A program made the translations under genes and the position numbers. DNA of 39,086 bases from positions 179,627 to 218,712 of the forward strand of contig NZ_JAHOPH010000003.1 of the NCBI RefSeq assembly GCF_019798055.1, in the 5' to 3' direction. The first letter of the stretch is position 1. Each line of letters starts with the position of its first letter. Positions 4,102-37,563 of this stretch are shown in pieces. Source of the stretch: Salsipaludibacter albus. Lineage in GTDB: Bacteria; Actinomycetota; Nitriliruptoria; Nitriliruptorales; Nitriliruptoraceae. The notes below the pieces were generated by a model, which did not search any database, had not been told where the DNA came from, and saw only the letters and a list, made by a program, of their open reading frames with translations.

Positions 4102-5346
4102 ATGGGTCAGAAGGTCAACCCCTACGGCTTCCGCCTCGGTGTCACCACCGACTGGAAGTCCAAGTGGATCGCCAATGACGAGGACTATGCGACGTACCTC
4201 CACGAGGACGACCGCATCCGCAAGTACATCCGTACGCGCGTCCGTCACGCCGGGATCTCCCGGATCGACATCACGCGAACCCGTGACAACGCCGAGGTCA
4301 GCGTCCAGGCGGCGCGCCCCGGCATCGTCATCGGTCGTCGTGGGTCCGAGGCGGACGCCATCCGGGCCGATCTCGAGAAGCTGAGCGGCAAGAAGGTCAA
4401 GCTCAACATCATCGAGATCAAGAACCCGGACCTGGATGCACAGGTCGTGGCGTTCAACACCGCCGAGCAGCTCAAGGGCCGGGTGTCGTTCCGCCGTGCG
4501 ATGCGTCGTGCGGTCCAGAACGCGCAGAAGGCCGGTGCGCTGGGCGTGCGGGTGCAGGTCGCCGGACGACTCGGTGGCTCCGAGATGAGCCGCACCGAGT
4601 GGTACCGCGAGGGCCGCGTGCCGCTGCACACGCTGCGCGCCAAGGTGGACTACGGCTTCGACGAGGCCAAGACCACCTACGGCGTCATCGGCGTCAAGGT
4701 CTGGATCTACACCGGCGACCAGCTCGGTTCGGGTGACGAGGCCGAGGCGCAGCGCGCCATGGACCGTGCCCGTGCCCTGGCCGAGGGCCGTACCGTGGAC
4801 GACCGTCCGCGTCGTCGCTCGGCCCGCAAGGCCGCCTCGGTCGCCAAGAAGGTGACCGGCGTGGGCAAGCGCCAGGTGCAGGAGGCCGTCGCCAAGGCTG
4901 GCGACTCGTCCGGTGACTCCACCGCGACGTCGTCCGCCACGGGGGCGAGCGCACCCGCGACCGCTGCCGACACCGGTGACAGCCCGGCGACCGAGACCGT
5001 CGAGGCCACGACCGAGGCCGCCCCCCCGCAGTCCGGCGCCATGGCCCCCGAGGACGTGACCGAGGCGGACGCCCCGTCCGCCCCGGACACCGACGGCGAC
5101 ACCACGCCGGCCGCCCCGGCGGACGCCGTCGTGGAGTCCGCCGACGAGGACGCCGCCGCCGAGGCGACCGAGTCGTCCGCCCCGTCCGAGGACGAGGCCG
5201 AGACGTCGGTCGACGAGTCCGCCGAGGTCGTCGAGACCTCCGGCGAGACCGACGACGCCACCGTCGCCGAGACCACCGATGCAGATGCGTCCGAGGTCGC
5301 CGAGGCGGCCTCCGACGACGACACCGATGACGAGGAGGATGCCTGA
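4102..5346 (+). CDS. rpsC: 30S ribosomal protein S3 with very long acidic tail
   Basis: 414 aa, against about 210-280 in most bacteria. Residues 1 to about 215 are standard S3: [13 protein letters not shown], a type II KH domain with its GRRG loop at residues 78-81, and the C-terminal domain ending near [15 protein letters not shown]. From about residue 235 the chain changes: first a short Arg/Lys/Ala patch, then about 160 residues of Ala, Asp, Glu, Thr and Ser ending [16 protein letters not shown] precedes the ATG. No frameshift is needed to read through; the stop overlaps rplP by one base. S3 lies at the mRNA entry tunnel, so the tail should sit at the solvent side. Confidence 0.96.
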
Positions 5347-14504: not shown

Positions 14505-15209
14505 TCACGGCGTCCCGGGTCCGGGACGGGGTCCCGGCCCCGGCCGCCGCCCGGGCGGCGTGTGCGTGATGCGCAGCTGCTCGACCTCGGTCACGATCTT
14601 GTGCGAGGCGACGAGGTCGGACAGCATCGCGACGTTGTCGGGCAGGCAGCTCACCAGCAGGACACCGTTGCCTTCGTTGTCACGGTGGAAGTCCTCCTGC
14701 ACGGCATCGGGGTCCACCCGCTCGACGAAGGTGAGCAGTGACTCCAGCTTGGCGGGCTGGTCGACCACGATCCGCAGGTGGCGACGGGCCGTCTCGGTGC
14801 GGCGGGCCACCGAGGCGTCGACCGCGCGCAGTCCCCACAGGACGGCGAGGCTGACCACGGTCCCGATCGTGGCCAGGGCGAACGAGCCGGCGCCCGCCGC
14901 CATGCCGAGGGCGGCGACGACCCAGATCCCGGCCGCGGTGGTCAGTCCGCTGACCGCCCCACGGTCGCGAAAGATCGCGCCGGCACCGAGGAAACCCACG
15001 CCGCTGACCACCTGGGCGGCGATCCGCGCCTCGTCGGGGCCGTCGAAGCTGGACACCGACGCGATCGTGAAGATGGCCGCACCGACTCCCAGCAGTGTGT
15101 GGGTGCGCAGCCCGGCTTCCTTGCGGGCCGTTTCGCGCTCGAGCCCGACCAGCCCACTGCACACGGCCGCGATCAGCACGCGAAACAGGATCTCGGTGGC
15201 CGTGAGCAT
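14505..15209 (-). CDS. MgtC/SapB-family membrane protein
   Basis: 234 aa. The N-terminal 130 residues hold four to five hydrophobic helices with the MgtC family marks: [20 protein letters not shown], then [19 protein letters not shown] and [20 protein letters not shown] soluble ACT-like C-terminal domain follows ([20 protein letters not shown]), ending in a Pro/Gly/Arg-rich tail. MgtC proteins affect magnesium homeostasis and ATP synthase in some pathogens; this specific role is not implied here. ATG 15209 has GGGAGA ten bases upstream. It is read against the ribosomal genes and is divergent from infA. Confidence 0.88.
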
Positions 15210-15509
15210 GTCGACCAATCTCCCGCGAGCCGACGGTCCCCGCCACATCGCGGGCCGCGTCCACGGGCCACGCCGACGATTCGCCGCGTCGCGATCGACC
15301 GTAGTCGCCCGGTCCCACGCCTGGCGGTTCCGCGGCCGCCGCGACGACGAACGGACGGGGTGGATTTTGCCCTCCGGGGGTGGAGGGGGTATCGTGGGGT
15401 CACTCCCGCTCAGGCGGGGGTTTCGCCACGCCTTCGACCAGACCTCACGGTCCTTCGATGCTGCATGGCGAACCAGACCAGCCACACCCACGAGTTGTAC
15501 GGAGGAAGC
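15210..15509. other. Divergent spacer between mgtC-like gene and infA
   Basis: These 300 bases hold no gene. They carry the likely infA promoter (15367-15395), a small hairpin just after its predicted start (CCCGC/GCGGG, 15405-15418, followed by GGTTT) and the infA ribosome-binding site at 15501-15505. I saw no convincing promoter for the minus-strand mgtC-like gene. Confidence 0.6.
15367..15395 (+). promoter_or_regulatory. Predicted housekeeping promoter for infA and downstream genes
   Basis: TTGCCC at 15367-15372 and TATCGT at 15390-15395 are separated by 17 bases, the ideal spacing for a sigma-70-type promoter. Transcription would start near 15401, giving a leader of about 105 bases. It makes sense because the two minus-strand genes upstream cut infA off from the spc promoter. 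Confidence 0.6.
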
Positions 15510-15728
15510 GTGGCCAAGGAAGAGGCCATCCAGGTCGAGGGCACCGTCACCGAGGCGTTGCCCAACACGACCTTCCGCGTGGAGCTCGACAACGGGCACG
15601 AGGTGCTCGCCCACATCTCCGGCAAGATGCGTCAGCACTACATCCGCATCCTGCCGGCCGACAAGGTCGTCGTGGAGCTGTCGCCCTACGACCTGACCCG
15701 CGGGCGGATCACCTACCGCTACAAGTGA
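15510..15728 (+). CDS. infA: Translation initiation factor IF-1
   Basis: 72 aa, the standard length. The chain [20 protein letters not shown] with [20 protein letters not shown] is a classic S1-type OB fold. IF-1 occupies the A site during initiation. The GTG at 15510 has a strong GGAGG four bases upstream; an in-frame ATG at 15464 would add 15 residues foreign to the family. Confidence 0.96.
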
Positions 15729-15737
15729 CCCACTGAC

Positions 15738-15765
15738 CCGGTCGTCGCCACCCTGCGACGATCGG
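15738..15765 (+). terminator. Hairpin after infA
   Basis: An 11-bp stem with one G-U pair (15738-15748 with 15755-15765) and a 6-nt loop, nine bases past the infA stop and followed by TCTTCC. It could end part of the infA transcripts. Confidence 0.45.
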
Positions 15766-15921
15766 TCTTCCACACAACCCCATACACGACGTCGTCGACG
15801 CACACCTGCTGCGACGACATCGGCCGGTTCCCGGCGTACCACCCTTCCTGCTGGTCTCGACCAGCTCGGTGGACTCGCCGCCCTGGAACCCCGGAGGCCG
15901 GGAGGGAACGCCCCGCCGCCG

Positions 15922-15945
15922 CCAACCACCACCTTCGGTGGTTGG
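15922..15945 (+). other. Hairpin upstream of rpmJ
   Basis: CCAACCACC pairs with GGTGGTTGG (9 bp) around ACCTTC, 23 bases before the rpmJ start. The infA-rpmJ spacer is 240 bp, unusually long for this pair, and shows no other gene. Confidence 0.4.
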
Positions 15946-15968
15946 GCCCGCCGAGGAGAGGAACGACG

Positions 15969-16082
15969 GTGAAGGTCCATCCTTCCGCCAAGAAGATGTG
16001 CGACAAGTGCAAGATCATCAAGCGCAAGGGACGTGTGCGCGTGATCTGCGAGAACCCGCGCCACAAGCAGCGCCAGGGCTGA
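15969..16082 (+). CDS. rpmJ: 50S ribosomal protein L36, zinc form
   Basis: 37 aa: [20 protein letters not shown] then [16 protein letters not shown]. Cys11, Cys14, Cys27 and His32 form the zinc site of the C+ type. The GTG start at 15969 has GAGGAGAGG upstream. L36 is the smallest large-subunit protein; its position between infA and rpsM is conserved. Confidence 0.96.
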
Positions 16083-16122
16083 CGAGCTCGGCCCGTACAC
16101 GTGGCCGGAAAGGACATCGATC

Positions 16123-16506
16123 ATGGCACGCATCGCTGGCGTCGACATCCCCCGCGACAAGCGGGTGGAGGTGGCGCTCACCTACATCTACGGCATCGGC
16201 CGCACCAGGTCCGTCCAGACCCTGGAAGCGACCGAGGTCGACCCCAACACGCGCGTTCGCGACCTCGACGACGAGTCGATCGTGAAGTTGCGGCAGTTCA
16301 TCGAGAGCAACTGGAACGTCGAGGGTGACCTTCGACGCGAGATCGCCGACAACATCAAGCGCAAGATCGAGATCGGGTCGTACCAGGGCATCCGCCACCG
16401 TCTCGGCCTGCCGGTCCGCGGTCAGCGGACCCACACCAACGCCCGGACCCGCAAGGGCCCCAAGAAGTCCGTTGGTGGTATCCGCAAGCCCGTTCGCAAG
16501 GCCTGA
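16123..16506 (+). CDS. rpsM: 30S ribosomal protein S13
   Basis: 127 aa. [36 protein letters not shown] and the basic tail [20 protein letters not shown] are typical. S13 contacts the P-site tRNA and bridges to L5. GGAAAGGA precedes the ATG. Confidence 0.98.
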
Positions 16507-19551: not shown

Positions 19552-20484
19552 ATGACGGTGCGGGTGCGGATCGACCTCGCGTATGACGGGACCGGGTTCC
19601 ACGGGTTCGCCCGCCAACCCGGCCTCCCCACCGTGCAGGGCACCCTCGAGGGTGCCCTGTCGCGTGTCTGTGGCCTGGTCCACGGACGCCCGGACGATCC
19701 GGCCGTGCCACTGGTCAGCGACCGGATCGCCACGACGTGTGCCGGCCGGACCGATGCCGGCGTGCACGCGCTCGGCCAGGTCGTCCACGTCGACCTCGAC
19801 CCGTCGTGGAGCCCGGCCACCGCGAGGTCGGTGGCGTTCGCGACCGAGGATCCCGACGTCCTGGTACGGCGGCTGGACGACCTGGTCGGTCACCCCATCA
19901 CGATCTGGTCCGTCGCGGTCGTCGACGGCGGGTTCGACGCCCGCTTCACGGCCACCGAGCGACGCTATCGCTACGTGCTGACCGACCGCCCGGCGGTCGA
20001 CCCACGGGGCCGCCACCTGCGCTGGGACCTCGGCGAGCCACTCGACGTTCCGGCGATGCACGAGGCGATCCAGCACCTCCGGGGCGAGCACGACTTCGCG
20101 TCACTGTGCCGCCGGTCCGAGGGGCGTCACACGTTGCGGCGCATCGACGCCGCCGCGGTCACCCGGGGGCCGTCCGGTGGCGTCGTGGAACCCGCGCCGG
20201 GCTCGTGGGCCGCCGGGCTCGACGACGCGGTCCACGTGACCCTGCGTGGTCCCGCGTTCTGCCACCAGCAGGTCCGCTCGACCACCGGGTGCCTGGTCGA
20301 GGTTGGAACCGGTCGGCGTCCGCCGACGTGGGTGGCAGAGGTGCTGGCGGCGCGGGACCGGTCCGTGGCCGCACGGGTCGCGCCGCCCGACGGTCTGACC
20401 CTGGAATCCGTGGCCTACCCCGACCCCTGGCCCGACTCCCCACCGGACGCCGACCCCCACCCCGTGGCGTTCGGTGCCGACTGA
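19552..20484 (+). CDS. truA: tRNA pseudouridine synthase A
   Basis: 310 aa, somewhat longer than the usual 250-270. Modifies uridines 38-40 of the tRNA anticodon arm. The start RVRIDLAYDGTGFHGFARQP and the catalytic motif CAGRTDAGVHALGQVVHVDL (Asp68) are clear, as is ATERRYRYVLTDRP and CHQQVRSTTGCLVEVGTGRR near the end. GAGGAGG precedes the ATG. The last six codons fall inside the first unit of a 62-bp tandem repeat, so the C-terminus has been shaped by the repeat. In actinobacteria truA is normally followed by rplM; here an iron operon intervenes. Confidence 0.96.
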   Translation: MTVRVRIDLAYDGTGFHGFARQPGLPTVQGTLEGALSRVCGLVHGRPDDPAVPLVSDRIATTCAGRTDAGVHALGQVVHVDLDPSWSPATARSVAFATEDPDVLVRRLDDLVGHPITIWSVAVVDGGFDARFTATERRYRYVLTDRPAVDPRGRHLRWDLGEPLDVPAMHEAIQHLRGEHDFASLCRRSEGRHTLRRIDAAAVTRGPSGGVVEPAPGSWAAGLDDAVHVTLRGPAFCHQQVRSTTGCLVEVGTGRRPPTWVAEVLAARDRSVAARVAPPDGLTLESVAYPDPWPDSPPDADPHPVAFGAD

Positions 20485-20711
20485 GGGGGGTGCGAACGCC
20501 ACCGGTCGCGGTGCCGTCGAGCGCCGTGGCGTTCGGTGCCGGCTGTGCCGGTCGCGAACGCCGTCGGTCGAGCCCGCAGGGCATGTGGTGGCGTTCGGAG
20601 CCGGGTGGCTCGGTTGCGAACGCGGTCGGTCGTCGTGCCGGCGGGGCTGGTGGTGTTGGGTGCCGGCTGATTCGGCTGCCAACGCCAGCGTTGGCGGCGC
20701 TGCCGAGCGGG
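20464..20711 (+). repeat. 62-bp tandem repeat array, four units
   Basis: Units start at 20464, 20526, 20588 and 20650, an exact 62-bp period. The first 37 or so bases of each unit are conserved (beginning GTGGCGTTCGGTGCCGG, and containing GCGAACGCC about 28 bases in), while the last 25 are looser. GGCGTTCG and CGAACGCC are inverted within each unit, so each can fold as a hairpin. Unit four is the most diverged. The array starts inside truA and occupies most of the truA-siderophore reductase spacer. Confidence 0.8.
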
Positions 20712-20719
20712 CGTCGTCT

Positions 20720-20812
20720 GGGCGCGTGGGAGTTGCTCGCTGCGCTCGCAACTGCACGGCTGGCCGGGGTCAGGAACCTGCTCGTCCGAGTCGCCAATAG
20801 CCCATGAAGGCG
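20720..20812 (-). repeat. 93-bp direct repeat, copy 1 (duplicated gene end)
   Basis: Matches 20821-20913 at 86 of 93 positions with no gaps, offset 101 bases. Read on the minus strand it still encodes a short relic FMGYWRLGRAGS with stop, corresponding to the true C-terminus FMGYWRLGKTGP of the siderophore reductase in copy 2. So copy 1 is a detached duplicate of the last 14 or so codons plus 3' flank of that gene. Confidence 0.8.
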
Positions 20813-20827
20813 CGCCCTTCGGGCGCG
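20811..20827 (-). terminator. Hairpin downstream of the siderophore operon
   Basis: CGCGCCC and GGGCGCG pair around TTC, about 44 bases past the end of the siderophore reductase gene. The 15-base core is identical to the hairpin just after rpsN (8019-8033). It sits at the junction of the two 93-bp copies. Confidence 0.45.
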
Positions 20828-20913
20828 TGGGAGTTGCTCGCTGCGCTCGCAACTCCACGGCTGGCCGGGGTCAGGGACCTGTTTTCCCGAGTCGCCAGTA
20901 GCCCATGAAGGCG
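20821..20913 (-). repeat. 93-bp direct repeat, copy 2 (contains live gene end and palindrome)
   Basis: The right half is the authentic 3' end of the siderophore reductase gene; the left half includes a hairpin at 20830-20856 (8-bp stem GGAGTTGC/GCAACTCC). That hairpin, read on the minus strand and extended to 20862, matches 532-564 at 31 of 33 positions. See copy 1 for the pairwise match. Confidence 0.8.
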
Positions 20914-21797
20914 ACGGTTCGGGGGTCGAGGCAACGGTCGCGGACGAGGTGACGGCGGAGGGTGGTGACGATGCCGGCCTCGCCAGCGAGCCAGGCGTAC
21001 AACGCAGCATGGTCGACGAGGGGCTCGCCGGCCGCGTCCACGGGCACGTCCCACAGGAGTTGGTCGTCGAGGTCGACCCGGGTGCGGGCCTCGTGCGGCG
21101 ACGTCGCCTCCGCACCGGACGTCGCAAGCAGCTCCGAGACCGCGGCGCCCACCGCGGGGACCAGCAGTGCACCGTGGAGATCGCCGTCGCGTGGCAGCCA
21201 CGTGACGGTGACGCCGGGGGGTGCGACCAGGTCGAGTCGATCGGCGGTGACGGGGACCTCGAGCAGCGCGACCCCACGGGTGTCGTCCGGCACGCCTTCG
21301 AGGATCGCCGCGATCGCGGGCACGGCAGTCTCGTCACCGGCGAGCAGGAGGGCGTCGTGCTGGGGCGGTGGGCGGAACTCCGCGCCACCGTGGGGGCCCG
21401 GGTGTGCCGCGTTCGGGCCGACCAGCACCAGCGGGCTGCCGGGGCGTGCAGCCTCTATCCAGCGTCCGGCCGGTCCGGAGTCACCGTGCGCGACGACGTC
21501 GACGTCCACCATGCCTGGGCGAACCCGTCGCACCGTGTAGGTCCGCAGGGGATTGCGGCGCCGGTCGGGCATCTCCCGCCGGCTCGCCAGCCAGTCGGGA
21601 CCACGGTCGAGGTGGCGGAATCCACCGTCGGGCGCGGGCAGGACGAGCTTGCAGCGCGTGTCGAAGCCGTTGTCGGCGAAGTCGTGGAGGTCGGGACCGG
21701 CGAACGTCAGTCGCCGGAAGGTCGGCGACAGGTGGACGATGCGTGCCACCTCCACGTCGAACAGGCGCCACGCTGGCGGGGTCGCTGCCGCGCTCAT
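20871..21797 (-). CDS. Siderophore-interacting protein (FAD-binding ferric-siderophore reductase)
   Basis: 308 aa, normal length for the ViuB/SIP family. It reduces imported ferric-siderophore in the cytoplasm to release iron. The N-terminal FAD barrel has RRLTFAGPDLHDFADNGFDT and the flavin motif RTYTVR; then HGDSGPAGRWIEAARPGSPL binds the phosphates; the NAD-binding part includes DALLLAGDETAVPAIAAILE; and the family ending GYWRLG is present. ATG 21797 overlaps the permease stop as ATGA, so translation is probably coupled. Last gene of the iron operon; its end lies in a duplicated 93-bp repeat. Confidence 0.93.
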   Translation of the reverse strand: MSAAATPPAWRLFDVEVARIVHLSPTFRRLTFAGPDLHDFADNGFDTRCKLVLPAPDGGFRHLDRGPDWLASRREMPDRRRNPLRTYTVRRVRPGMVDVDVVAHGDSGPAGRWIEAARPGSPLVLVGPNAAHPGPHGGAEFRPPPQHDALLLAGDETAVPAIAAILEGVPDDTRGVALLEVPVTADRLDLVAPPGVTVTWLPRDGDLHGALLVPAVGAAVSELLATSGAEATSPHEARTRVDLDDQLLWDVPVDAAGEPLVDHAALYAWLAGEAGIVTTLRRHLVRDRCLDPRTVAFMGYWRLGKTGP

Positions 21798-23881
21798 GGA
21801 CGTGCCCCCCGCTGGCGCCACAGCAGCCACACGAAGTAGGGAGCGCCGAGCACGGCCGTGACCAACCCGGCCGGCAGCTGGACGGGCGCGAGTGCCCACC
21901 GGCCCACCGTGTCGGCGGTCGCCACCAGCAACGCCCCGAGCAGCCCGGACACGACGATGCTGCGTGCATGGGACGCCCCCACCAGCGCGCGAGCGGCGTG
22001 CGGCGCGACCAGGCCCACGAACCCGACGACCCCGACCGCCGACACCGACGACGCGGTCAGGACGGCGGCAGCTGCCAGCAGGACCAGCCGGATCCTCCCC
22101 ACCTCGACGCCCAGGACGCGTGGCGACGTCTCGTCCAGCGCGAGGAGGTCCAGCTCGCGGTGGTGCAGCCAGGCCATCGGCACGACCACGGTCAGGGCGA
22201 GGGCCACCGGCACGAGGTCGACCAGCGATCGTCCGTACGTGGAACCGGCCAACCAGGTCAGGGCGATGGTCGCGTCCCACGGGGCCACGGCCTGGATGAC
22301 GATCGTGGTGAGCGCACCGGCGCCCGCCCAGGTCGCGACCCCGACGAGCACCATCCGATCGGTGGCCAGTCCACCACGCGACGAGAGTCGGTACACCGCC
22401 CCGAAGGTCGCCAGCGCCGCCGCCGTCGCGGCGGCGGAGACCAGCCAGACCGGCGCACCGGGGACGAACAGCACGGCGCAGACCGCCCCGAACCCGGCTC
22501 CCGCGGTGACTCCGAGCAGGCCCGGTTCCGCGAGCGGGTTGCGACAGACCGTCTGGACGGCGTCGCCGGCAACGCCCAGGGCGGCGCCGGCGAGCAGGGC
22601 GGCGAGCACCCGCGGGACTCGCTGCCCCAGCACGAAGTCCACCTGGCGTCCGGCCCGGTCGCCGAGCCAGTTGGCGACGTCGCCCAGCAGGACGAGCCGG
22701 TCGCCCAGCAGGACGCCGGCGACCAGTGCCGCGACGACCAGGATGACCAGCACTGCGGTCACGACGGTCGCTCGTCGTCGCGTGCGGGGGCGCACGCCGG
22801 GGGAGGACGACCCGGATGTCGGCACGGTGTCGCGCATCCGTCGCACCAGCCACACCATGACCATGGCTCCCAGCAGGGTCGTCGCCACCCCGGTGGGGAC
22901 GTTCAGGGACGCCTGAGCCGGCAGCAGCAGTCGCAGGGCGACGTCGGCCAGCAGCACGACCGCGACCCCGCACAGCGCGGCGAACGGCACCAGGGCGGTG
23001 TGCCGGCCCAGGCCGGGGACCCGCCGGGCGAGCAGTCGTGCCACGACCGGGCCGCTCAGCCCGACGAACCCGATCGGGCCTGCCACGGTGACGGCGGCGG
23101 CGGCCAGCAGGACGGCGACCAGCACGCCGGCCACCCGGGTGCGTCGGACCGGGACGCCCAGCGACTGGGCGGCGTCGTCGCCGAGGCCGAGCAGGTCGAG
23201 TCGACGCCCGAGCGCGGCAGCGCCCACCAGTCCGACGACGACGGGCCAGGCCGCGACCTGCAACGTGGCCGTCCCGGTCAGGGCGATGTTGCCCGCCCCC
23301 CAGGCGTACAGCCCGACGGTCTCCTGCTCGAACAGGATCAGCAGGGCCATGGTCACCGCGTGCAGGGCCAGGGTCAGGGCGGAGCCCGCCAGCACCAGGC
23401 GTGCCGGTCCGTCCGCCCCGCCACGGGCGAGCACCAGCACGAGCCCGGCGGCCAGCAGGCCACCGACGAAGGCCAGTGCACCTGACAGCACGAACGGAAC
23501 CGGGATGCCGAGTGCTGCCACGGCCACCACGGCCAGGTAGCCCCCGGCATTGACCGCCAGCGTGTCGGGCGAGGCCAGTGGGTTGCGGGCGATCGCCTGC
23601 AGGACCAGTCCGCTCGCACCCAGTGCCCCGCCCACGACCAGTGCGGCCAGGACCCGGGGCAGGCGAGAGGCCACCAGCACGGCGGCCGTGGTGTCGTCGG
23701 GTGCGATCGCGAGTCGTGCGATGTCGACCAGCCCGACGTCGGCCGTGCCCAGCCCGAGGTCCACGACGGCGAGCACCCCGACGGCCGTCGCGACCAGCAG
23801 GAACGCCGCGACGCTGACGACCCGGCCGGCACCCCCGGACCGTTGGGTCGGGGGTGCGGGCCGGGTCGCGAGGTCGGACAT
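21794..23881 (-). CDS. Iron-siderophore ABC transporter permease, fused double FecCD protein
   Basis: 695 aa, twice the usual 330-350 for a FecCD permease. Two full copies follow each other: half 1 (about residues 20-350) has RLPRVLAALVVGGALGASGL and GPIGFVGLSGPVVARLL; half 2 (about 365-690) has RVPRVLAALLAGAALGVAGD and GVVGFVGLVAPHAARAL. A short Arg/Ser/Pro linker joins them. This is the layout of E. coli FhuB, where one chain replaces the permease dimer. About 20 membrane helices expected. The start ATG 23881 lies 14 bases after the lipoprotein stop. Confidence 0.93.
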   Translation of the reverse strand: MSDLATRPAPPTQRSGGAGRVVSVAAFLLVATAVGVLAVVDLGLGTADVGLVDIARLAIAPDDTTAAVLVASRLPRVLAALVVGGALGASGLVLQAIARNPLASPDTLAVNAGGYLAVVAVAALGIPVPFVLSGALAFVGGLLAAGLVLVLARGGADGPARLVLAGSALTLALHAVTMALLILFEQETVGLYAWGAGNIALTGTATLQVAAWPVVVGLVGAAALGRRLDLLGLGDDAAQSLGVPVRRTRVAGVLVAVLLAAAAVTVAGPIGFVGLSGPVVARLLARRVPGLGRHTALVPFAALCGVAVVLLADVALRLLLPAQASLNVPTGVATTLLGAMVMVWLVRRMRDTVPTSGSSSPGVRPRTRRRATVVTAVLVILVVAALVAGVLLGDRLVLLGDVANWLGDRAGRQVDFVLGQRVPRVLAALLAGAALGVAGDAVQTVCRNPLAEPGLLGVTAGAGFGAVCAVLFVPGAPVWLVSAAATAAALATFGAVYRLSSRGGLATDRMVLVGVATWAGAGALTTIVIQAVAPWDATIALTWLAGSTYGRSLVDLVPVALALTVVVPMAWLHHRELDLLALDETSPRVLGVEVGRIRLVLLAAAAVLTASSVSAVGVVGFVGLVAPHAARALVGASHARSIVVSGLLGALLVATADTVGRWALAPVQLPAGLVTAVLGAPYFVWLLWRQRGARP

Positions 23882-23895
23882 CGACGGCGCCCGCG

Positions 23896-24948
23896 TCAGC
23901 CGGTGACGGCGTCGACGAACGCCTCGACGAAGGCGCCGCCGGACGCCGGGCCGCCGAAGAGCCAGATCCCGTCGGGAATCCGGTGCACGTTCCCCGACTG
24001 CACGAACGGCAGGGACTCCCAGACCTGGTTGCCGGCCAGGCCCTCGGTGAAGGGATCCGGGCCGTAGTCGTCGTTGGCGGCGTACAGGAACGCGACGTCG
24101 CCGAGCGAGGTGAGGCCCTCCACGTCGGTGGCGGCCAGTCCGTAGTCGGGATCGCCGCCGTCCGTCCAGGCGTCCACCATGCCCAGTTCCTCTCCGATCG
24201 CGCCCAGGAAGGACCCCGGTGTGTACATCCGGATGGACACCACGTCGTTGTTGAGGTAGCCGTCGGCCATCGTGAACTCCGCACCGTCCAGGCCGGCGTC
24301 CTCGATGGCGCTGGCGCCGTCGGCCAGGGCGGTGTCGAAGTCGGCCAGCAGGGTCTCGGCTGCGGCCTGGGTGCCGGTGGCCGCCGCGAGCGTCTCGACG
24401 GTCAGTGCCATGTGGCCGAGCGGGTCGCTGGCGTCGGACCCGCGCAGGGCCAGCACCGGTGCCACGTCCTCGAGCTGGGCGATGACGTTCTCGGGCAGGT
24501 CGGTCGTGGTGACGACCAGGTCCGGTTCCAGCGCGGCGACCGCGTCCAGGCTGGGCTCGCCACGCGTGCCCACGTCGGGCGTGTCGGGGTCGATCGGCAT
24601 GACGGTGTCCCAGGTGTTGTAGCCCTCGACGTCGGCGATCCCGACGGGCTCCACGCCCAGCGCGAGCAGGTTCTCCACGAGGCCCCACTCGAGCGCCACC
24701 ACGTCGGTGGCCGCGGCGTCGAGCGTGACCTCGCCATCGTCGCCCGTGACGGTCACCGGACCGTCGGCCGTGGCGGGCGTCGTGGACTGGTCTGGTGACG
24801 TGCTCGCGGGCGAGGCATCCGCGGAGTCGGTCGTGGACGACGCCTCGGGTTCGGCCGCCTCGGTCGTGCCGCAGGCCACCAGGGCCATGGCCAGCGCGAG
24901 GGCGCCGAACGTGCCGGCGGCACGTCGGACGGTGCGGGTCGGGTGCAT
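23896..24948 (-). CDS. Iron-siderophore ABC transporter substrate-binding lipoprotein
   Basis: 350 aa. A lipoprotein signal (basic start, then GALALAMALVAC with the lipidated Cys26) is followed by a Ser/Thr/Ala linker and a class III periplasmic-binding fold: VVALEWGLVENLLALGVEPV, EALEPDLVVTTTDLPE-like as LDAVAALEPDLVVTTTDLPE, and GNVHRIPDGIWLFGGPASGG near the end. It should capture ferric-siderophore outside the membrane. It lies 76 bp after the ATPase gene and 14 bp before the permease. Confidence 0.93.
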   Translation of the reverse strand: MHPTRTVRRAAGTFGALALAMALVACGTTEAAEPEASSTTDSADASPASTSPDQSTTPATADGPVTVTGDDGEVTLDAAATDVVALEWGLVENLLALGVEPVGIADVEGYNTWDTVMPIDPDTPDVGTRGEPSLDAVAALEPDLVVTTTDLPENVIAQLEDVAPVLALRGSDASDPLGHMALTVETLAAATGTQAAAETLLADFDTALADGASAIEDAGLDGAEFTMADGYLNNDVVSIRMYTPGSFLGAIGEELGMVDAWTDGGDPDYGLAATDVEGLTSLGDVAFLYAANDDYGPDPFTEGLAGNQVWESLPFVQSGNVHRIPDGIWLFGGPASGGAFVEAFVDAVTG

Positions 24949-34940: not shown

Positions 34941-36668
34941 ATGGCAGCAATGGGTGGTCACGATGCAGCCGAGGCCGATCGGGAGGTCGACGCCCGCCAC
35001 GCGGCGATCCTGGTCGTGGGACGGGACGACCACACGCGCCGGGTCGTGGGTCGGGAGGTCCGAAATCGCTACTCGGCGGACTACGACGTGCGCGTGGTGG
35101 ACGGTCCCGAAGCCGGCGAACGCGAGATCGACGCATGGGAGGCCACGGGCCGGCCGGTGGCGCTCGTCGTGTGCGCCTTCACGGCTGCGGACGAGGATGC
35201 GCTGGAGTTCCTGTCACGCGTGCGGTCCCGCCACCCTGCCGCCAAGCGCGGCGTGGTGGTCAGGTGGGGGAACTGGGAGCGCCGGGCCGCGATGTTCGCG
35301 GCATTGGAGGCCGGGGACATCGACCTGTACCTCGTGCGGCCCGACAGCCCACCCGACGAGGAGTTCCACGGGATCATCTGCCAGGCCCTCGAGGAGTGGG
35401 CGATCGGGCGTGGTGGGGGCCGGGAGGCCGTGCGGCTCGTCGGCGAGCAGTCGGCGCGGGTCCAGGAGCTGCGGGACACCTTCGGCCAGAACCACATCCC
35501 GGTCGGCTTCGTCGACGTCACGTCGCCGGCCGGGGCCGGCGCGCTGGCCTCGCTGGGGTTGGACGATCCGGCGCTGCCCGTCGTGGTCCTGGAGTTCACC
35601 GACCCTCCCACGGTGCTGCAGGACCCCACCAACCTCGAGATCTCTGACGCGTTCGGGATCACCGATCCCCTGCCCGAGGGCGTCCACGTCGACGTCGCCA
35701 TCGTCGGGGCCGGACCGGCGGGGCTGGCTGCTGCCGTGTACGCGGCCTCGGAGGGGCTCGACACGCTGGTGATCGAGCAACTGGCGATCGGGGGGCAGGC
35801 CGGCACGACCAGCAAGATCCGCAACTATCCCGGCTTCCTGCAGGGCGTGAGCGGAGACAAGCTGGCGTTCACCGCCTTCCAGCAGGCGTGGTCGTTCGGT
35901 GCACGGTTCCACTTCATGCGGGCCGCGACGTCGCTGGCGGTCGACGGCTCCGACGTCCTGCTCGGCCTGTCCGACGGCAGCGTGGTCCGGGCGTCCTGCG
36001 TCGTGGTCGCCACGGGGGTCAGCTACCGCCGACTGGGGGTGCCGTCGCTGGATCGTCTCCAGGGCCGCGGCGTCAGCTACGGCGCCGGGACCTGGGCCGC
36101 GCCGTCCATGGCCGGCAAGCGCGCCTGGGTCGTCGGCGGCGGCAACTCCGCCGGCCAGGCGGTGGCCCACCTGGCCAAGTTCGCTGCACACGTGACCCTG
36201 CTGGTCCGTGGGTCGGGCCTGGCCGAGAGCATGTCCGAGTACCTCGTCAACCTGATCGCGGCGACCGACAACGCGGACGTGCGGTACCGGACCGAGGCGG
36301 TGGCTGGCCTCGGCGACGATCGGCTCGAGGGCCTGGTGCTGCGTCATCGCGACACCGGCGACGAGGAGCAGGTCCCCGCGGACGGCCTGTTCGTGCTGAT
36401 CGGTTCCCAGCCCCACACCGACTGGCTCGGCGACGTCGTGGAGCGGGACGAGTGGGGCGCCGTCAAGGTCGGCGCCGCCGTCGGGGACTTCCCGCTGGAC
36501 CGACGACCCATGGTCTTCGAGACCAACCTGCCCGGCGTCTTCGCCGTGGGGGACGTCCGCGCCGGCTCGGTCAAGCGGGTGGCCTCGGCGGTCGGCGCCG
36601 GAGCCATGGCCATCCAGCAGGTCCACGCCAGGCTCGAGGAGGTGCCGCGTGCCGGCCACCCGGGATGA
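34941..36668 (+). CDS. Fused pseudo-receiver / thioredoxin-reductase-like FAD oxidoreductase
   Basis: 575 aa. Residues about 18-135 have a response-regulator receiver fold (ILVVGRDDHTRRVVGREVRN, then EFLSRVRSRHPAAKRG), residues about 150-235 a thioredoxin-like fold, and from about 250 a thioredoxin-reductase module with FAD motif GAGPAG (256-261), VIEQLAIGGQAGTTSKIRNY and NADPH motif GGGNSA (399-404), ending GVFAVGDVRAGSVKRVASAV. The redox CxxC of true TrxB is absent: GAGT occupies residues 381-384. The receiver lacks the phospho-Asp, the Thr and the Lys (Arg instead). RefSeq-type name would be fused response regulator/thioredoxin-disulfide reductase; activity is uncertain. Overlaps the next gene by 20 bases. 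Confidence 0.85.
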   Translation: MAAMGGHDAAEADREVDARHAAILVVGRDDHTRRVVGREVRNRYSADYDVRVVDGPEAGEREIDAWEATGRPVALVVCAFTAADEDALEFLSRVRSRHPAAKRGVVVRWGNWERRAAMFAALEAGDIDLYLVRPDSPPDEEFHGIICQALEEWAIGRGGGREAVRLVGEQSARVQELRDTFGQNHIPVGFVDVTSPAGAGALASLGLDDPALPVVVLEFTDPPTVLQDPTNLEISDAFGITDPLPEGVHVDVAIVGAGPAGLAAAVYAASEGLDTLVIEQLAIGGQAGTTSKIRNYPGFLQGVSGDKLAFTAFQQAWSFGARFHFMRAATSLAVDGSDVLLGLSDGSVVRASCVVVATGVSYRRLGVPSLDRLQGRGVSYGAGTWAAPSMAGKRAWVVGGGNSAGQAVAHLAKFAAHVTLLVRGSGLAESMSEYLVNLIAATDNADVRYRTEAVAGLGDDRLEGLVLRHRDTGDEEQVPADGLFVLIGSQPHTDWLGDVVERDEWGAVKVGAAVGDFPLDRRPMVFETNLPGVFAVGDVRAGSVKRVASAVGAGAMAIQQVHARLEEVPRAGHPG

Positions 36669-37563
36669 CGCGTCGTCGTCCGAGGGCTCCCGGCAGGCTC
36701 CGACCGGCGGATCCGACGAGGCAGTCGGACGGCCCCTCCTGCCCTCCATGCGGATCCTGCTCCTGGTCGCCGCCGTGCTCGTCTTCCTCGCCGGGATCCA
36801 GCTGTTCGTCTTCTCCGAGCGGACCGACCGGTACTTCGCGTGGACGATCGAGCCGTCGTTGACCGCGGCGTTCCTCGGCGCGTCCTACTGGGCCAGTGCA
36901 GCCTTCGAGCTCAGTGCCGGTCGTCGACGGCAGTGGCACCGCGCGAGGATCGCCGTGCCGACGGTGTTCGTGTTCACGAGCCTGACCCTGGTCGTCACGC
37001 TGGTCCACCTCGACCGCTTCCACCTCGACGCTGAGCTCGAGCTGGCCACGCGGGCGGTCACCTGGGCGTGGATCGTGGTCTACGCGGTCGTGCCGGTGCT
37101 GATGGTCGTCGTGTGGTGGCGCCAGGCTCGGGTGCCGGGTGGGGACCCGCCGCGGGTGGCGCCCCTCGGCCGAGGACTTCGCGCCCTGGTCGTCGTCCAG
37201 GCCGCCGTCCTGGCCGGCACGGGCATGCCGCTGCTGGTCGCCCCCACGTGGGCGTTGCCCGCCTGGCCGTGGGAGCTCACGCCGTTGACGGCCCGGGCCA
37301 TCGGCGCCTGGCTGACGAGCCTCGCCGTCGCAGCCCTCCACGCCCTGGTGGAGGACGATCTCGATCGTCTCCGGCCGGCGGGCTGGGCGTGGACCGTGTT
37401 CGCCCTGCTCCAGGCCGTCGCCCTGCTGCGGTATCCGACGACGCCTGACTGGAACCGACCGTCGTCGTGGACCTACCTGGTGTTCCTGCTGAGCGCGCTC
37501 GTCGTCGGCGCGGCCGCCCTGCGTGGAAGCAGGGCCGGGGGAGTTCGGCCCGGCGCGTCGTGA
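36649..37563 (+). CDS. Polytopic membrane protein of unknown function
   Basis: 304 aa. I do not recognise a family. After a polar N-terminus of about 33 residues there are roughly eight hydrophobic segments (first RILLLVAAVLVFLAGIQLFV; others near 64-85, 101-122, 136-158, 177-200, 215-238, 246-262 and 273-290). No metal or redox motif stands out. The GTG at 36649 has GAGGAGG six bases upstream and lies inside the end of the reductase-like gene, a 20-base overlap that implies coupled translation. Confidence 0.75.
   Translation: MPATRDDASSSEGSRQAPTGGSDEAVGRPLLPSMRILLLVAAVLVFLAGIQLFVFSERTDRYFAWTIEPSLTAAFLGASYWASAAFELSAGRRRQWHRARIAVPTVFVFTSLTLVVTLVHLDRFHLDAELELATRAVTWAWIVVYAVVPVLMVVVWWRQARVPGGDPPRVAPLGRGLRALVVVQAAVLAGTGMPLLVAPTWALPAWPWELTPLTARAIGAWLTSLAVAALHALVEDDLDRLRPAGWAWTVFALLQAVALLRYPTTPDWNRPSSWTYLVFLLSALVVGAAALRGSRAGGVRPGAS

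Follow-up and report, generated by a model that had tools for sequence, protein, structure and literature searches.

Thioredoxin reductases (TrxR) normally rotate between two states, called FR, in which NADPH lies at the flavin, and FO, in which the CxxC pair lies at the flavin. Among enzymes of this fold, TrxR-like reductases of the YumC type are a working precedent for direct transfer from FAD to a protein (PMC10294844). On the signaling side, Bourret et al. defined the aspartate-less pseudo-receiver in 2025, and their review terms the mechanisms by which pseudo-receivers are activated or inactivated a mystery (PMC12632262). Proteins in which a receiver is fused to a TrxR-like module are already known from genomes; in the open-access literature, we found no paper on this family and no biochemical characterization of it, and a review on thiol reductases of Deinococcus does not appear to describe it.

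The member of this family described here, P0001, is encoded in a 39,086-nucleotide stretch of the Salsipaludibacter albus genome (the window). Its open reading frame is intact, begins with ATG, and is preceded by a purine-rich stretch. The features of the gene and of its downstream neighbor are as follows:

34941..36668, + strand: P0001, 575 aa, aspartate-less receiver / glutaredoxin-like / CxxC-less TrxR-like flavoprotein (alignment, AlphaFold2 (AF2) model)
35004..35408, + strand: pseudo-receiver domain (residues 22-156), modeled as a (beta-alpha)5 fold (profile-profile comparison, AF2 model)
35019..35024, + strand: receiver DD position, G27-R28 (alignment, profile-profile comparison)
35175..35177, + strand: phospho-Asp position, A79 (alignment, profile-profile comparison)
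35259..35261, + strand: switch Thr position, V107, with the invariant W109-G110 next to it (alignment, profile-profile comparison)
35337..35339, + strand: receiver Lys position, R133 (alignment, profile-profile comparison)
35355..35369, + strand: DEEFH (139-143), invariant motif specific to a six-member clade (clade alignment)
35430..35654, + strand: glutaredoxin/thioredoxin-like domain without CPxC, residues 164-238 (alignment, Pfam on relatives, AF2 model)
35685..36638, + strand: TrxR-like FAD/NAD(P)H module, residues 249-566 (profile searches, structure comparison)
35706..35723, + strand: FAD-binding GAGPAG, residues 256-261 (alignment)
36081..36092, + strand: TrxR CxxC position, GAGT, residues 381-384 (alignment)
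36135..36155, + strand: nicotinamide nucleotide motif GGGNSAG, residues 399-405 (alignment)
36637..36642, + strand: Shine-Dalgarno-like AGGAGG inside the P0001 gene, 6 nt before the GTG at 36649
36649..37563, + strand: overlapping gene for a multi-TM protein from a family without annotation, with a conserved downstream position in 4/6 clade members

A sequence-only reading of this DNA had proposed a receiver, thioredoxin-like, and TrxB layout, and this layout was borne out. In P0001 itself, Pfam matched only the C-terminal Pyr_redox_2 module, because the N-terminal sequence is too diverged for the receiver profile; among members of the family alignment, Response_reg was matched in 15 of 23 and Glutaredoxin in two. 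When the six-member clade that contains P0001 was compared, profile to profile, with intact receivers, the match had 99.5% probability over 134 columns, which makes the homology certain. The AF2 model, built on a shallow alignment of 18 sequences and reaching a mean pLDDT of 82.7, agrees: it places a (beta-alpha)5 domain at residues 22-156, a glutaredoxin-like beta-alpha-beta-alpha-beta-beta-alpha domain at 164-238, and the TrxR module at 249-566. The domain order and the NSAGQ, MSxYL, and KRVASAVG signatures are those of the receiver-Grx-like-TrxR-like family, which is widespread. A scan of the genome contigs gave one relative, and the others came from whole-genome searches. PADLOC returned one weak match only, which carries no meaning here. 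Elsewhere in the window, the ribosomal protein S3 gene (4102-5346, + strand) encodes 414 aa in all, with a long acidic low-complexity C-terminal tail; a gene for an MgtC/SapB-like membrane protein (14505-16181, - strand) seemingly lies, by eye, between map and infA of the ribosomal spc-alpha cluster; and FecBCD-like siderophore transport genes are followed by one for a siderophore-interacting (FAD-binding) protein (20159-24948, - strand, also by eye).

The protein had been read as one that has lost both its phospho-site and its redox cysteines. For the cysteines, the idea of a loss does not hold. Of 113 homologues, which come almost entirely from actinobacterial genomes with one cyanobacterium added, none carries CxxC in the aligned TrxR columns, not even the members whose receivers are perfect, and missing cysteines are thus not peculiar to P0001; the usual text at this place is YGAAx or YGSAx. 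The residues themselves had been read correctly: P0001 has G381-A-G-T384 where L003, a genuine TrxR of the same genome, has CATC, and the alignment also confirms that its Grx/Trx-like segment lacks a CPxC. Specifically, P0001 contains only three Cys residues (78, 147, and 353), none of which is conserved in the six-member clade; a shifted CxxC or a hidden relay Cys was rejected on this ground, so that the claim that every relay residue is gone stands. Against the TIGR01292 model (NCBIfam, cut-off 343.45 bits), P0001 scores 210, below the cut-off, and L003 scores 407, above it, while a paralogue of P0001 in the same genome, L002, likewise falls far below. Judged from the alignment, the CxxC-less state defines the family, predates P0001, and marks the family as a branch within the TrxR fold that has no CxxC. 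Genomes annotate such proteins as 'thioredoxin-disulfide reductase' or 'FAD-dependent oxidoreductase', and the assigned activity is probably wrong for the whole family, because the catalytic cysteines are missing from every sampled member. An enzyme that still reduces disulfides, via FAD directly or through a Cys elsewhere, as proposed for YpdA/Bdr-type enzymes, would fit the TrxR fold and a weak profile similarity to YpdA; however, with three non-conserved Cys and CxxC columns empty throughout the homologues, we consider it improbable.

Relatives of this type also occur in viral sequences. IMG/VR contigs (L177-L194) encode stand-alone TrxR-like flavoproteins of ~300-440 aa with the same NSAGQ/KRVA signatures, and these, too, lack CxxC in the alignment. 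P0001 and three tested viral proteins match PHROG 6397, whose label, 'ribonucleotide reductase large subunit', is apparently a misnomer.

The receiver has a different history. In P0001, the phospho-Asp column holds A79, the switch Thr column holds V107 (within VVVRWGN), and the Lys is replaced by R133, in line with the sequence-only reading; its acidic pair, described as partly lost, is replaced in both columns (G27/R28), and D29/D30 merely adjoin them. A family tree computed without the receiver columns separates clade I, with the classical DD/D/T/K set, from clade II with support of 100/99. Within clade II, the switch Thr is replaced in almost all members and the Asp is lost in 23/38 sampled rows; over the whole tree, the Asp label changes at least seven times, as forced by the starred branches, and by this tree the Asp is lost repeatedly within clade II. 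P0001 belongs to a six-row actinobacterial clade (100/100) nested in clade II; 6/6 rows of this small clade have lost D, T, and K, while the paralogue L002 keeps a complete receiver. The loss of the phospho-site, as read from these alignments, is therefore a trait shared by the six-member clade rather than a feature of one odd protein, and A79, by its residue type, could not be phosphorylated, even by a kinase encoded elsewhere in the genome.

The loss of the phospho-site goes together with that of a neighboring kinase. When a kinase neighbor was defined as a histidine kinase gene within 300 bp on the same strand, 57/58 clade I genes had one, typically 3-60 bp downstream, vs. 0/39 in clade II, the window included (Fisher p = 2e-26 as a count, to be read as descriptive because the rows are related). 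The absence of this neighbor from clade II would explain the degeneration of its receivers, and the comparison of intact with degenerate receivers offers a clean natural experiment on how a pseudo-receiver originates once its kinase has been lost and is later reused. In RefSeq examples from Streptomyces, Deinococcus, and Nostoc, the clade I operon consists of an FAD-dependent oxidoreductase and an ATP-binding protein (the kinase), and that of Streptomyces additionally holds a UBP-type zinc finger gene. The paralogue operon of the same genome (L065, 7774-12310) contains zf-UBP both as a gene of its own and fused C-terminally to a cNMP-HATPase histidine kinase. On a Rhodococcus plasmid (L210, 1846-4254), a cNMP-binding, TrxR-annotated relative directly follows trxA and a gene for a UBP zinc finger, an arrangement that suggests that the cNMP-fused branch is linked to thioredoxin.

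A receiver left without its kinase might be a relic, and the receiver, or the whole gene, could be decaying; the missing kinase itself is consistent with this, as is the lower share of invariant columns within the clade in the receiver (19%) than in the TrxR part (42%). Nevertheless, in L031/L032, the only close pair in the six-row clade, dN/dS of the receiver is 0.144, as against 0.127 in the Grx-like domain and 0.133 in the TrxR module, so that the receiver equals the catalytic part. The open reading frames are full length in 6/6 clade members, and the receiver has gained invariant residues of its own, namely W109-G110, where the Thr loop used to be, and D139-H143 (DEEFH) after beta5. The low dN/dS in the close pair, these motifs, and the fold kept in the model argue that the receiver is not a relic, and we regard decay as disfavored and very unlikely. 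The dead receiver is under purifying selection and is not decaying, as measured in one close pair. P0001 retains the fold and the homology of a phosphorylatable receiver but has neither its D, DD, T, and K residues nor an adjacent kinase. A receiver homologue without phospho-Asp, kept by selection (as estimated from one close pair), its N-terminal domain is an aspartate-less pseudo-receiver as defined by Bourret et al. (PMC12632262).

The cofactor sites had been described as kept, which is correct for FAD and only partly so for NADPH. The FAD-binding GxGxxG is present as GAGPAG and the nucleotide motif as GGGNSAG; the 2'-phosphate motif HRRxxxR, which reads HRREELR in L003, is VRGSGLA in P0001. 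Since R423 is the sole remaining Arg of this motif, NADH is a possible coenzyme of P0001. In structural comparison with L. lactis TrxR, the AF2 model resembles the FR form (TM 0.90, rmsd 2.7) far more than the FO form (0.68), and FR is also preferred in a clade I-type relative (FR 0.84 vs. FO 0.74). P0001 is thus predicted to adopt an FR-like conformation, in a model derived from the shallow alignment.

The gene immediately downstream overlaps that of P0001 by 20 bp. Its product is a multi-TM protein with about 7-8 hydrophobic regions, for which Pfam gave no match above the cut-off. In three further members of the clade (G099, G247, and G081; 4/6 with the window), a homologue directly follows the flavoprotein gene, and L058 and L060 are 60% and 54% identical to the protein of the window. 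In G247, a frameshift, either real or an assembly error, splits the membrane gene beside the L031 flavoprotein (L059, 8551-9332 region). In G012, there was no homologue at E 1e-4; in G022, the only candidate, a membrane protein encoded on the opposite strand, is very weakly similar at best. The membrane family was found in 22/396 genomes in all; it also occurs without the flavoprotein, and nine such stand-alone neighborhoods contained no flavoprotein relative nearby and no consistent neighbors. A role as a haem protein was considered for the membrane neighbor and found no support, with one invariant His only across the wider family. Because the membrane family is also found without the flavoprotein, the link is non-exclusive; the pairing is suggestive and could be partly incidental.

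Taken together, we see about an even chance that P0001 is an NAD(P)H-FAD oxidoreductase or sensor with a non-disulfide acceptor, from which phospho-control is gone and whose pseudo-receiver docks to a membrane partner. The earlier proposal of a sensor or of an electron donor to a different partner stands as likely, supported by the absence of a kinase from clade II and by the multi-TM gene in 4/6 clade members. NAD(P)H would reduce FAD directly, in the 'flavin-reducing' arrangement of TrxR, and electrons, or the redox state of the flavin, would pass from FAD straight to the non-disulfide acceptor. Ancestral control was likely exerted through phosphorylation of the receiver by the neighboring kinase and would have been given up in the branch of P0001. 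With WG and DEEFH as a new surface, the pseudo-receiver may serve as a docking or dimerization module, and the Grx-like domain may also be used for docking. The most likely target would be the co-translated multi-TM protein, a putative acceptor, anchor, or reporter, which would bring the enzyme to the membrane. More tentatively, the two proteins may form a new membrane redox pair, in which a soluble CxxC-less flavoprotein has exchanged histidine-kinase control for constitutive docking to an undescribed multi-TM protein by way of its aspartate-less receiver, and supplies the membrane with electrons or a redox signal.

A purer form of signaling, in which the redox state of FAD, or NAD(P)H, is reported via the partner bound to the pseudo-receiver with no acceptor turnover, is a possibility to which we give distinctly less than an even chance. 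It would suit a protein without relay or conserved cysteines, as well as a family whose members are fused to receiver or cNMP-binding domains and have kinases and zf-UBP genes as neighbors. However, the motifs for FAD and for the nucleotide show strong conservation, and the close CxxC-less folds, the TrxR-like FNRs, are true electron-transfer enzymes (PMC10294844).

Among known systems, the clade I fusions, such as L002, are like P0001 in their three-domain architecture, the absence of CxxC, Y380, and the GGxNSAGQ, MSxYL, and KRVASAVG signatures; they keep DD/D/T/K and the adjacent kinase, whereas the clade of P0001 has lost both and has a membrane-protein neighbor in 4/6. UBP-type zinc finger genes are frequent further neighbors of the clade I fusions. 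The uncharacterized fusion family is thus already known, and what is new is its kinase-free, aspartate-less, often membrane-coupled variant. The low-Mr thioredoxin reductase TrxB shares the two-domain FAD/NAD(P)H fold, GAGPAG, and GGGxSA with P0001, which, unlike TrxB, has neither CxxC nor HRRxxxR, falls below the TIGR01292 cut-off, and bears N-terminal receiver and Grx-like domains. AhpF is the top whole-length structural match, with a Trx-like N-terminal part ahead of the TrxR module, but it lacks a receiver and each of its two parts holds a redox CxxC, whereas P0001 has CxxC in neither. Ferredoxin/flavodoxin-NADP+ reductases of the YumC type are, as P0001, of the TrxR fold without CxxC, yet they are single-module proteins with no signaling domains and of low similarity to P0001 (best phmmer E 1e-13 to 1e-16). 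Aspartate-less receivers resemble P0001 in being receiver homologues without the D (in P0001, also without DD, T, and K); their description (PMC12632262) names no thioredoxin or oxidoreductase output.
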